Shown: positions 3,401 through 28,500 of the stretch, piece after piece
How positions within the stretch are numbered: position 1 is the stretch's first letter
How the letters are laid out: each line of letters starts with the position of its first letter
Assembly: GCA_026745465.1 (NCBI GenBank)
Contig: JACYXH010000522.1
Span: 139,501 to 203,500, forward strand
DNA from: Lota lota
Taxonomy: Eukaryota > Chordata > Actinopteri > Gadiformes > Lotidae
DNA: 64,000 nucleotides
Direction: 5' to 3'
Notes under the pieces: generated by a model
Databases searched by the model: none
What the model was told of the DNA's origin: nothing
Seen by the model: the letters and a program-made list of their open reading frames with translations, nothing else
Program-made: the position numbers and the translations under genes

Positions 3401-6400
3401 GGCGTATTATCGTCTTGGGAAGAGCAGAGCCGGGTTTCTCATCCCGTCTACTCTACTTACGGTTTGTTCTGAAGGGATTGGTGTGTACGACACGTGTAAT
3501 GTGTGTAATGGCTGACTGATGCTTGCAGGGAGACACTGGATCCCCCGGTGAGACGGGAGACCTGGGACCCAACGGGGACAAGGTAACACAACGCTAGTTC
3601 TACTGAGACGGACTCACAGTTGTGTTTTGTTGTTATTCCTAACATATTGGGAATCCTTTATTTTCTGTACCTTTTTATTGATCTTGTTTTTCTGTGCCTT
3701 TATCTCCTTTCTTTTCTTCTTCTCCCCTTTCTTCTCCTGGTCCTCTTTGTTCTTCTGCTTCTTCTCCTTTTTTCCTTTAACCTTTATCATTCTGCCACTT
3801 TTCCTCATTCATTTTCTTTCTTCCTCCTCCACCTCCTTGTAATCCTTACTCATTCTCCTCTTCTTCCTATTTCTCCCCATTCTCCTACTCATCCTCCTTT
3901 TCCTTCTCCTTCTCGTCTTTCATCTCCTCCTTCTCCCTTTCCTTCTCCATCTCCTCTTCCTCCTCCTTCACCTCCTTCTCTTCCTCCTCTTCATCTTCCC
4001 GTCCTCCTCCTTATTTTTCTTCTCCACCTTCTCCTCTTCCTCCTCCTCCTCCTCCGTCATAATATCATGTTTGTTGTCATAATCCTAGTTGTGTTCCCCA
4101 ACAGTGTGAACCCATCATTATCATCCTAGTTGTGTTCCCCAACAGTGTGAACCCCTCATTATCATCCTAGTTGTGTTCCCCAACAGTGTGAACCCCTCAT
4201 TATCATCCTAGTTGTGTTCCCCAACAATGTGAACCCCTCATTATCATCCTAGTTGTGTTCCCCAACAATGTGAACCCCTCATTATCATCCTAGTTGTGTT
4301 CCCCAACAGTGTGAACCCCTCATTATCATCCTAGTTGTGTTCCCCAACAGTGTGAACCCCTCATTATCATCCTAGTTGTGTTCCCCAACAGTGTGAACCC
4401 CTCATTATCATCCTAGTTGTGTTCCCCAACAGTGTGAACCCCTCATTATCATCCTAGTTGTGTTCCCCAACAGTGTGAAGGCAATGGCATTATGTTCCCC
4501 ACAGGGTGAGGTCGGACCCTATGGGCTGTCAGGCAGAGAGGGCCCCTGGGGGCCTCTTGGGGAGAACGGTGAAGGGGGACCTAAAGGAGAGAAGGGCTTC
4601 ATTGGATTATTGGTAAATACAACCTGACACCTCATCCAGTCACAATCCTGCATCTTAATATATTACTTACCATCTCAAGTCTCTTATTGATTAGGATTTG
4701 CCAATACATTATCAATTAACCATTTTCATTGGTTCATGGGCCTATACATTGTTGAGTTATAGTCTCAGCATTTGGTCATAAATCATCAACATTCAGAGCC
4801 TGTATGACATTTGGTAATGTGATACTTCACATTATTTATTAGGATGTTGGGTGATGGTAATGTGATAAGTAAATATAGTGAGGGAGAGGGAGTACCTACT
4901 GCTTACTGCTTATTCAATCAGGACCCAACGGTGTGTGTGATTATTAATGCTCCCCTTCTCAGTCCTAGAGAACAAATCATAAGAAACACTGTTTCAGAGA
5001 AAAGATCCTCTGATTCAAATGAAATGTCAATGAAACGATATTCTATTTGAACGTGGAGCGATATTCGGTTTGAATGTAAAACATTGTATCACCACACGTT
5101 TTCTTGCCCTGTTGATGCCCTATAAGGGCAGACCGGGTGCTAAAGTCCTGTTTTGTGATTGCTGTTGTGTGCGAGCAGGGCGAGCCTGGCCTGCTGGGGG
5201 AGGCAGGGCCTGCAGGGCTAGCAGGGTTACAGGTGAGTCTGTCTGTCACCATCAGGGTTCATTGATCCTGACTGCAACCGCTCTTTCAGGGGACAACCCT
5301 TACAACTTACACGTATTGATCGCTTATCAGATACGATCAGTGATTGATGAGCACACACATTTTGTGAAGGGGGGGGGGTGGGTGTTGGTCAGATATCCGT
5401 GTGTGGATGTGGTTTTGTGTTCAGTGGTTATGAATACCAGAAACGCACACTGAATCCTTCCTTCCTTGTTATCAGGGAGTCGTGGGTCCTAATGGACCAC
5501 CAGGTCTGGATGGACCTCCGGGACAGAAGGTAACAGCAGAGGATATACTTTATAGTCGATTGGTAATCTCAATAATGCCTGACACGGTACTGTCGAAGCA
5601 TGGGCATCTATGTCATCCACATTCTGAGACTATTGAGACAATATTTTTTGGTCTGCATTATTATATCCACTATCTATTGGCCTTATGTGAATACATACTG
5701 GCAATGTGGCTTTTGAACCTAACAGAAACATTTAAATTCAGTGTTCAATGTATATTCAATCATGGTGTGCAACAAGAAGATCCTACACACAGCTTGTACC
5801 ATAAGATGAACTATATTAATCCCAGACAGAAAATGCGGGCTATTAAGTGGGACTACGCAATATTTCTGTCTGGGATTAATATAGTTCATCTTATGGTACA
5901 AGCTGTGTGTAGGATCTTCTTGTTGCACTCCAGTAGTATAAATAGTCCGTCTATATTGCATCCATTTCTCCATAGGGAGACTCTGGATCGTACGGGGTCA
6001 CTGGGCCTCCAGGGGGAGCAGGTCCTCGGGTAAACAACATCCCATCATACGTCTCTCTTCCATCAGTATTCTGTGTTGCTCTGGTCCACATATGAATACA
6101 TCTGTGTGTGTGTGTGTGTGTGTGTGTGTGTGTGTGTGTGTGTGTGTGTGTGTGTGTGTGTGTGTGTGTGTGTGTGTGTGTGTGTGTGTGTGTGTGTGTG
6201 TGTGTGTGTGTGTGTGCGTGTGTGTTCATGTGGTCGTAACTGTAGGGAACCACTGGAGATCGTGGCGTCAGGGGAGACCTGGGGAAGCTTGGACCACCGG
6301 TAACTCATTACATTCAGTTAATGTATATGCACAAACATGAAGTAATTAATGACTAGTCAGTAATGACTCCACAAACATGAAGTAATTAATGACTAGTCAG

Positions 6401-25500: not shown

Positions 25501-28500
25501 TTACTATACACTATTAATAGATGACTATTTAGACATTTGTATCCACATCGAATTACAGTGAATTCAGAGACAGACTGTAAGGAGCAGGTAGGGGCCAGGG
25601 GCCTCTTGCTCTAGGATACATGTGGACATTAGGGATGGAACCCAGTACCTTTCAGCTGGGAATCAAACACTAACCACTAGACCAGTGGTTTTCAAACTGG
25701 GGGGCACGACCCCCTGTTTCCTTTGATCGTTGGTATGCATTTGAAGCCTGAAAAGGGGAATGCTTTATTGATGAACTGTGGGAGTGTGTGTGGATGGTGG
25801 CTGGTTGAAGCAGCCTCACCTGGCCGAGTCTGATTGGACTCTGGGGCTGGGTGAGGCTGCACACCTGTTGCTCATTGATCAATCAGTGTGCACAGGTTCA
25901 ACCAGCCGTCTCCACACACTCTTGGGAGTTCTCCTAGATGGCACCAACACCAGGCCATGTATCATGTATTTACTGCAAACTTGACAACAAACCGGATTGA
26001 ACACCACCACCCTGCGTCCTTTTGGTTTGGAGGAGCCCAGAAAGGTCACCTAGGTGGCGTGTAGTAACAGACTTTGCTACAAACAGACTTTGAAGGAAAT
26101 GTATAATAGACTGCAGACTTAGACTGCATGGCTTACTCTACCATACAAAATATTGGCTGTCTTCTGGGGCCGAAAGACCTCCACAGCTGGGTCACGGAAA
26201 CGTTTGGGAAGCCATGCGGTAGGCTGTCCTGCCCACCCCACAGCCATGTGCTGACCCCATGTCTTCCCTCCTTCTCTGCCCTCTCCAGATAGACATGGGG
26301 TCCAGGCTGATGCCGGCCTTCAACACCCCCTCTAAGATCCCCTACTCGGACGTGAACATCGGGAAGGGCACGGCCCACCCCCCCCGCTGGACCACCGACA
26401 GCACCGTGGCCGAGGTTACCAGCATCCAGCTGGAGTTCAGAGAGCTCAGCCGCCTCACCCAGGACCCCCAGTACCAGGTCAGTACCCCCCTAGACTCACC
26501 CAGGACCCCCAGTACCAGGTCAGTACCCCCCTAGACTCACCCAGGACCCCCAGTACCAGGTCAGTACCCCCCTAGACTCACCCAGGACCCCCAGTACCAG
26601 GTCAGTACCCCCCTAGACTCACCCAGGACCCCCAGTACCAGGTCAGTACCCCCCTAGACTCACCCAGGACCCCCAGTACCAGGTCAGTACCCCCCTAGAC
26701 TCACCCAGGACCCCCCAGTACCAGGTCAGTACCCCCCTAGACTCACCCAGGACCCCCAGTACCAGGTCAGTACCCCCCTAGATCCACCCAGGACCCCCAG
26801 TACCAGGTCAGTACCCCCCTAGACTCACCCAGGACCCCCAGTACCAGGTCAGTACCCCCCTAGACTCACCCAGGACCCCCAGTACCAGGTCAGTACCCCC
26901 CTAGACTCACCCAGGACCCCCAGTACCAGGTCAGTACCCCCCTAGACTCACCCAGGACCCCCAGTACCAGGTCAGTACCCCCCTAGACTCACCCAGGACC
27001 CCCAGTACCAGGTCAGTACCCCCCTAGACTCACCCAGGACCCCAAGTACCAGGTCAGTGTTCCCTAGACTCACCCAGGACCCCCAAAGGAGGATGGATGG
27101 ATGGATGGATGGATGATGGGTGGGTGGATGGATGATGAATGGATGGATGATGGGTGGATTGATGGGTGCATGGATGGTCAATAGATTGATGATGAATGAA
27201 AATGGATGGATTTGGATTGGTTAAGAGAGAGATGTTTGGTTTAATGGATAGATAGGTGATGGAGGTGTGTGGATGATGGACAAAGATGAGTCAATGGAAC
27301 CATGGAACCTCAGATATCATCTAGCTATCTCCAAAACAAGCCAACATGTTAACTCCCCGGTACCATACTGAACACCTGCCCGTCTAAGAGCAGTCGTTCT
27401 CCCTCCTCTCACCGCAGGACGCGGTGAACGAGGTGACGAGGCTGGTCCACAACCTGGCGGGCAAGAAGGATGGCCTGGTGCCCATGTTCATCAACACCAA
27501 CACGGGCCACTTCTCCCACAAGGGGGTGTTCACGCTGGGGGCGCGCACCGACAGCTACTACGAGTACCTGCTCAAACAGTGGATCCAGGGCGGCAAGACC
27601 GAGGACAGGTGACTGCAATTAGGGACACGAGGAATGAGCACCAATTAACCAATTACTGAATCGACCAATGAATTGGTCATTCAAGCACTTTCTCAATTAA
27701 GATACGATTTAACAATGCGTGAACCATTGTTTGAGTGGTAATGTTGCTAATCAAGCTAATAATTGCTATAGGGATATAATGTATGTCTTGCTTTTGCCTC
27801 TGCAGCCTATACAAGTACTTTTCAGCCAATAATATGCAGTTTCAGATATTGAAATGCACCAGTGTTCAATTTTCTGTCCGATACCTTGCGCATGTAATAT
27901 ATACAATCTATCCGTCCATCGGTCTCTCTTCTATGATGCTAGTTCTATAAATGTGCATGCTGGTGATGCAAACATCCATGGATATGTATACTCGATGTAC
28001 TAGCTTAACATGAAGCATTGCATCTTAACATGTGTGGGTTGCAGCCTGCTAGAGGACTACCTGCATGCTCTGGAGGGGGTGAGGAAGCACCTGCTCAGGC
28101 AGTCTGGACCCAACAAGCTCACCTTCGTAGGAGAGCTGTCCCACAACCGCTTCAACCCTAAGATGGTAAACCACACAACCACACCAGCTCACTGAACTGG
28201 CAAGCTACAGCACGTAGCTACGGCAACGGCAATCAGTCGTCCTGTAAATGCTGAGCCGGCCAAGGTGTGTCCAGTTGTCTGAGGCAGTGTTTAACCTGGC
28301 CCAGGAGCCCCTCACCACCATCATTATCCAGTCCAGTGGACCGTGGACATGATTATCTGGTCGATTCGTCTGCTTTCTCCATGTTTTTTTTTATTTGTTA
28401 ACCCTGTGCTTCTGGATTTTTAAAACAAGGGTAATAGTAATGATTCATAGCAATAATGATAATGTAATGATGATAATTCAAGATAAAAAGTACAATTTGA

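Follow-up and report, generated by a model that had tools for sequence, protein, structure and literature searches.

Tandem repeats at splice junctions of a fibrillar collagen gene and the adjacent man1b1-like gene of Lota lota

Five introns in two adjacent genes of Lota lota carry tandem repeats at or close to a splice site, and the repeat units hold near-copies of that site. The question raised by this locus is whether repeats are favoured at splice junctions, whether the copied sites act as regulated decoys, or whether ordinary repeats happened to fall across exon edges. The structures were analysed within the whole stretch of 64,000 nucleotides (the window) and compared with a wider sample of junctions.

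Host genes and repeated junctions

The exons of the collagen gene are mostly 54 or 108 bp long, all 30 concatenate in frame, and the gene has a COLFI Pfam match (E 8.8e-38). Its name, COL27A1, is presumed from the human gene order near whirlin. The exons of the second gene, whose product is an ER mannosyl-oligosaccharide 1,2-alpha-mannosidase by likeness, were joined in frame into 695 amino acids that match Glyco_hydro_47 (E 2e-173) and PDB entry 1x9d (E 3.6e-246). Reading the frames of the 30 collagen and 13 mannosidase exons gave 41 complete introns, in agreement with the "about 42" of an earlier note on this DNA. Array boundaries, unit lengths and copy numbers were taken from TRF (Table 1).

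Table 1. Genes, repeat arrays and splice sites, in window positions
Feature	Position	Strand	Content
Fibrillar collagen gene, 3' part, COL27A1-like	322..16908	+	30 exons, C-propeptide and stop
41-bp array, 9.7 copies	4082..4479	+	10 acceptor-like units: 8 AG, 2 AA
Intron end with real acceptor 4504/4505	4480..4504	+	possibly a last, diverged copy of the 41-bp unit
Array, two overlapping TRF rows	8853..9029	+	real acceptor 9019/9020
92-bp duplication, 2.0 copies	10401..10584	+	decoy acceptor 10479, real acceptor 10571/10572
man1b1-like gene	19476..31134	+	13 coding exons
65-bp duplication, 2.2 copies (plus 11 bp)	22229..22369	+	decoys 22239, 22304; real acceptor 22369/22370
41-bp array, 15.4 copies	26454..27085	+	real donor 26477/26478, then 14 decoy donors 26518-27052

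The earlier note had placed the splice site inside the repeat unit in all five introns. This was clear for the acceptors at 9,019, 10,571 and 22,369 (the last flush with the repeat) and for the donor at 26,478, but the acceptor at 4,504 lies outside its array, 25 bp beyond the array end at 4,479. The likeness of this acceptor, TTATGTTCCCCACAGGGTGA, to the 41-bp unit, TTGTGTTCCCCAACAGTGTGA, is seen in gapped alignment only. Its gapped score of 25 was the best of 237 acceptors (the other 236 reached a maximum of 19), and such a score is at noise level once the search covers the whole flank of every junction; the intron end is possibly a diverged last copy of the unit.

At the other sites the extent of the copied segment differs. 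The unit at 26454 consists of the last 24 exon bases and the first 17 intron bases, and all 14 decoy donors keep the GT and read CAG/GTCAGT. The 92-bp duplication takes in the first 13 exon bases, with two differences between its copies, while the repeat at 22,369 stops exactly at the AG, with zero exon bases repeated. Three decoy acceptors (8894, 8943 and 8982) precede 9,019 at spacings of 49, 39 and 37 bp, and the last 20 intron bases are the same in all four acceptor copies. Within the scored window, the decoys at 9,019 and 26,477 are base-identical to the real site; acceptor scoring that included exon positions was biased by the collagen exons, which start with GG, and was repeated on intron bases only.

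The decoy counts reported before were right for these four junctions (3, 1, 2 and 14, respectively), but the ten units at 4,504 hold eight AG decoys; the other two read CAA instead of CAG (ends 4,227 and 4,268). Likewise, the statement that every translated decoy leads to a stop or a frameshift applied to 29 of 30 units, including all 14 downstream donors of the 26,477 array, the exception being the acceptor at 4,432, which adds 72 in-frame, stop-free bases. The order in which the real acceptor is always last and the real donor always first, which had been attributed to selection, is forced by geometry, because a duplication that contains the junction leaves one copy attached to the remaining exon.

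Independent origin of the arrays is supported: the units are unlike in length or in sequence, and two of the five array stretches, searched against the 575-Mb genome in a search that ignores very common words, had no match beyond their own locus (the query 26454-26600 gave just the 26454 array). EGF_CA exons, in fibrillin-like clusters, were also located in the genome.

Placement of arrays relative to junctions

The sample consisted of the window and 19 stretches of 10 kb from this and other fibrillar collagen genes, with 544 junctions and 47 arrays; apart from one other gene, it covers triple-helix exons of fibrillar collagens. A strict match required the junction to lie 6 nt or more inside the unit, and a looser count admitted flush junctions. 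In the window, which holds 14 arrays, random placement gave a strict expectation of 1.32, against three clear cases (P=0.14) or four with 4,504 (P=0.035); with flush junctions allowed, 1.77 were expected and four (P=0.088) or five with 4,504 (P=0.021) were found. Over the whole sample, arrays did not span junctions in excess of what random placement predicts (47 arrays, 544 junctions): under the strict rule five clear cases (P(>=5)=0.53), or six with 4,504 (P(>=6)=0.35), stood against 4.80 expected, and with flush junctions six (P(>=6)=0.67), or seven with 4,504 (P(>=7)=0.49), against 6.58.

Junction-spanning events are not confined to the window, because the same structure was found at a donor further upstream in this collagen, in its 5' part (L034:7404), and at an acceptor in another collagen (L045:1739). 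Thus, both boundary types are affected, donors at 26477 and L034:7404 and acceptors at 9019, 10571, 22369 and L045:1739, and the unit spans the exon-intron boundary at all of these except 22369, where it is flush; at 4504 it does so weakly. These two outside arrays compare with 3.45 expected under the strict rule (P(<=2)=0.31) or 4.77 with flush junctions allowed. Junctions with arrays numbered 4-5 of 84 in the window and 2 of 458 outside it (Fisher p 0.006-0.001), although the window had been picked for looking rich. Placement by itself does not account for the excess in the window, with the same reservation about how the window was picked, and the arrays themselves are not due to chance.

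Several other counts were set aside. A base-level comparison took 237 acceptors and 235 donors, with 7 simple acceptors skipped, and found ungapped near-copies within 1 kb at 5 of 465 junctions. Among intronic anchors (26 YAG and 412 GT simple ones dropped), 247 of 1642 YAG and 198 of 1500 GT had one. This comparison was not used to test for depletion, since each array contributes many intronic anchors but no more than one junction. A crude TRF overlap took in repeats inside coding Gly-X-Y exons (L040, L044 and L047), which were removed, and a pyrimidine-rich array that ends 2 bp before an acceptor (L039:925) was left out, the AG not being part of its unit. A gapped search at score 25 over 541 junctions (14 simple ones skipped) returned 29 rows, many of which paired one real junction with a second one or with generic sequence of acceptor type, and only L045:1739 was examined closely. 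A stricter one (536 junctions, score of at least 28) gave five matches against one in a reversed-intron control; its low-complexity filter lost the real match at 22,369 (score 64) and its threshold excluded 4,504 (score 25).

Origin of the arrays and fate of the copied sites

The arrays are most probably ordinary local minisatellites, born by tandem duplication, that happen to straddle exon edges. Segments holding or ending at an exon-intron boundary would have been duplicated in tandem by slippage or unequal exchange, in a genome that holds many tandem repeats, and the added copies would land on the intron side. The single copy joined to the exon would stay a usable site, so the gene should continue to work, and the array would be free to grow and homogenise. 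We infer a duplication origin for the arrays, and splicing probably uses mostly the exon-joined site. Tolerance of the decoys is the best reading, as is reported for comparable arrays of amphioxus (lancelet), called mirages (PMC3902484). Free drift would produce the kind of AG loss seen in two of the ten units upstream of 4,504. Textbook competition between splice sites predicts some use of decoys that are base-identical to the real site, such as those at 9,019 and 26,477, and this counts against the explanation given here.

The earlier suggestion was that repeat birth favours splice junctions, for example through short homology shared by the intron end and the exon start. In its favour are the counts in the window and, in the 22229 duplication, an 11-nt repeat, TTGGYTGGCAG, which takes in the AG. 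It was not supported by the wider count, in which 5-6 junction-containing arrays faced 4.8 expected over 544 junctions and those outside the window fell below expectation. Breakpoint homology is readable only outside the multi-copy arrays; the 92-bp array consists of exactly two units without extra end homology, and the other collagens, with exons called by the same GG start, have an array at 1 of 404 junctions. We regard such a bias as improbable. A local excess could also arise if junction-spanning arrays, born at random, were purged less strongly from these two genes than from collagens with high expression. Taken together, the two window genes and the 5' collagen part have arrays at 5-6 of 138 junctions against that single one in the other collagens (p 0.005-0.001), where 3.10 would be expected; however, the window was selected post hoc, the numbers are small and the expression level is presumed. 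Relaxed selection is compatible with the minisatellite explanation and adds to it, and we consider it possible but tentative.

It is very unlikely that the decoys are regulated poison sites that tune the level of both genes through premature stops and nonsense-mediated decay. Nearly all translated decoy units disrupt the frame, and some decoys match the real site base for base, but a stop is also expected from most random intron inclusion, the AG has decayed in part of the units before 4,504, and the decoy at 4,432 keeps an open frame. Falsely expanded repeats or inflated copy numbers are a concern since tandem repeats cause assembly errors, notably in Atlantic cod (PMC6868369). Against this, the units carry private differences (an inserted C in unit 26700, a swapped pair at 26783, the AA units 4205 and 4246), the 92-bp pair differs internally, and the largest array is 632 bp. 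An artefact is very unlikely.

Related structures and significance

In structure, the arrays belong with the amphioxus mirages, and so to a kind already known. In both, tandem units of tens of bases lie across a 5' or 3' splice boundary, the copies carry AG or GT signals and several genes per genome are involved (PMC3902484). Many, and not all, copies carry these signals, here 8 of 10 units before 4504 and 14 of 14 donors at 26518-27052. Amphioxus arrays are described as homogenised inside with diverged edge units; here the terminal units have six edits at 27029 and nine at 4451 against 0-2 inside, but the first unit at 26454 equals the consensus. Copy numbers of 2-7 are described for amphioxus arrays, with variation among haplotypes or cells, whereas up to 15 copies are found here, in a fish genome and in one assembly. 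Splicing is reported to be normal in amphioxus despite the copies.

In the minisatellite of human IFI6 (G1P3, 6-16), a donor also lies in repeat units adjoining the exon end, and downstream units act as donors that yield isoforms (PMC4526556, citing Turri 1995); here, in contrast, the unit is 41 bp, not a multiple of 3. In human genes that lie in segmental duplications, internal tandem repeats, minisatellites among them, also sit on exon-intron boundaries (De Grassi and Ciccarelli 2009, PMC2812944); there, paralogs were compared with transcript support, whereas the present case stands on genomic sequence. In the Rogers model of intron gain, tandem duplication likewise copies splice signals, through segments containing AG and GT (PMC3087553, PMC2891723, PMC4974935). 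No new intron was seen in the collagen exons, which keep mostly their 54/108-bp in-frame sizes. The accessible portion of a fish paper rich in minisatellites (PMC2688266) has nothing on repeats at splice sites.

It seems unlikely that mirage arrays cluster in few genes with measurable use of the decoys, in which case the man1b1 array could yield a 15-nt in-frame micro-exon, DPQYQ; if true, this micro-exon, the exon part of the unit between two copies, would be an early stage in which a minisatellite gives rise to introns and exons. The four acceptors at 8,894-9,019 and the fifteen donors from 26,477 are base-identical competing sites and thus natural experiments on spliceosome choice. The rough base rate of 6-7 in the 542 junctions of this sample (about 1 in 77-90) puts a genome-wide test for such a junction bias within practical reach, and the mirage structure, described in lancelets, is extended to a fish genome.

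Splice sites and repeat arrays of the window

The window, taken from a 575 Mb genome of 867 contigs, includes two genes with arrays at their splice sites. The collagen is presumably COL27A1 and the exon at 43048-43803 presumably belongs to whirlin, both names following human gene order. Joined end to end, the exons stay in frame as far as the stops, which fixes the splice sites well. Two collagen exons, 7808-7861 and 9020-9073, break the Gly-X-Y pattern (GPTALP, GDSAND), and another (11656-11673) has only 18 bp. Dinucleotide runs of at least 16 bp make up 4.4% of the window; a high short-tandem-repeat content has been described for codfishes (PMC5241972, PMC5894186).

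Genes and junction-spanning arrays (L034, 5′ part of the same collagen; L045, another fibrillar collagen)
Feature	Position	Size	Basis or location
Fibrillar collagen gene, 3′ part	322-16908	30 exons	joined exons in frame, domain matches
man1b1-like coding region, complete	19476-31134	13 exons	joined exons in frame, domain/structure matches
Putative whirlin, first coding exon	43048-43803		harmonin-N and PDZ matches
69-bp array	L034:7389-7597 (G000:C522:136889-137097)	3 copies	upstream in the window's collagen gene
47-bp array	L045:1408-1739 (G000:C654:1196107-1196438)	~7 copies	another fibrillar collagen gene

The earlier note had described five introns with tandem repeats whose unit contains the splice site. 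All five arrays were detected by TRF, but two fit the description less well: the real acceptor at 4,504, which lies 25 bases beyond its array, can at best be a diverged copy of the unit, and at 22,369 the AG is the exact end of the repeat. At 9,019 the last 20 intron bases are identical across four acceptors. The 92-bp duplication at 10,571, with two differences between copies, extends 13 bases into the exon. The donor at 26,477 stands in about 15 repeats of the last 24 exon bases plus the first 17 intron bases, and 15 of 15 donors read CAG|GTCAGT. The AG or GT is retained in 28 of the 30 decoy units (array copies resembling the real site). The note's statement that decoys give a stop or a frameshift would hold for 29 of the 30 if used; the one at 4,432 would add 24 in-frame codons. 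Three other minisatellites (24619-24769, 30699-30905 and 29722-30066) stop 4-22 bp short of the man1b1 acceptors 24773, 30924 and 30088, respectively; of these, 24619-24769 and 30699-30905 are rich in pyrimidines and may contribute to the polypyrimidine tract.

Order and possible use of the decoys

The real acceptor is last and the real donor first, which had been attributed to selection. When a segment containing the junction is duplicated in tandem, a single copy keeps its connection to the remaining exon: at an acceptor the last one, at a donor the first. This order is thus dictated by the event itself, and it is uninformative on selection.

Scored on the intron side, decoys match the real sites at 9,019 and 10,571. 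They reach 4.4 and 5.7 against 4.4 for the real site at 22,369, and score slightly higher at 4,504 (9.2 for AG-bearing units, 8.0 for the real site). Since decoys score as high as the real sites or above them, competition is plausible, and some decoy use is likely judging from these scores. Every unit of the man1b1 array carries weak acceptor-like AGs; the one yielding a putative 15-nt in-frame micro-exon (DPQYQ) is at the 6th percentile of real acceptors' scores.

Test for junction enrichment, and origin of the arrays

Nineteen 10-kb stretches were fetched: two lie on the 5′ side of the window's collagen gene, and the other 17 come from 16 further places located with the COLFI model. Their exons were called from the Gly-X-Y frame and splice signals; the count is thus confined to triple-helix exons, and any exon overlooked takes its junctions with it. 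Together with the window this gave 544 annotated junctions and 47 arrays (non-simple, period at least 20, not wholly within exons) in 156 kb. The copy test took 542 junctions, of which 7 were then skipped as simple. In the null model, each array's unit was placed randomly within its own stretch.

Five clear strict cases (junction at least 6 nt inside the unit) were found: 9,019, 10,571, 26,477, the donor L034:7404, where the end of a 54-bp exon plus its donor is repeated, and the acceptor L045:1739, where a 54-bp exon has the altered last copy as its real acceptor. With 4,504 there are six. Random placement predicts 4.80 (sd 2.02), giving P(≥5)=0.53 and P(≥6)=0.35. When flush cases (repeat ending at the junction) are allowed, 22,369 brings the tally to six, or seven with 4,504, against 6.58 expected (P(≥6)=0.67, P(≥7)=0.49). 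In the fetched fibrillar collagen stretches, two strict cases were found and 3.45 expected. The proposal that repeat birth is favoured at junctions is not supported by this sample. The window is richer than the rest (4-5 of 84 junctions vs 2 of 458, p 0.006-0.001). This surplus is partly an effect of choice, the window having been reported for looking rich; a further cause may be that such arrays are purged less strongly from these genes than from the major collagens.

Genome searches with 26454-26600 and 4300-4600, which pass over very common words, matched their own loci only, so both stretches look local rather than derived from a dispersed satellite. No extra homology was found at the ends of the 92-bp pair, and in the 65-bp pair the AG falls within an 11-nt repeat; hence a single breakpoint rule does not emerge. 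The window's arrays are real structures, most likely of ordinary origin, mostly matching their first description. A collagen intron also holds an inverted repeat at 5763-5932 (70-nt arms, 99% complementary, 30-nt spacer) that may be a foldback element, and further strong inverted repeats lie at 41167-41290 (49-nt arms) and 49599-49669 (31-nt arms).

Known counterparts

Exon-intron boundaries duplicated in minisatellite fashion were described in amphioxus globin genes as mirages, a name derived from the Adh3 case (Canestro 2002), with AG/GT signals in many copies, unstable length, homogenised interiors and normal splicing by RT-PCR (PMC3087553). PGBD5 was added as an example, and troponin C is cited too (PMC3902484). 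In the mirage model, steps such as the hypothetical DPQYQ micro-exon would make new introns. In human IFI6 a minisatellite provides several donors that are in use (PMC4526556), and for duplicated human genes 162 alignments are reported in which repeats sit at exon-intron boundaries, along with 27 intron modifications after curation (PMC2812944). No paper on fish mirages was found in the part of the open literature surveyed, which leaves their absence unproven. The splice-site arrays described here are a fresh instance of an already known kind, in a fish-like genome.
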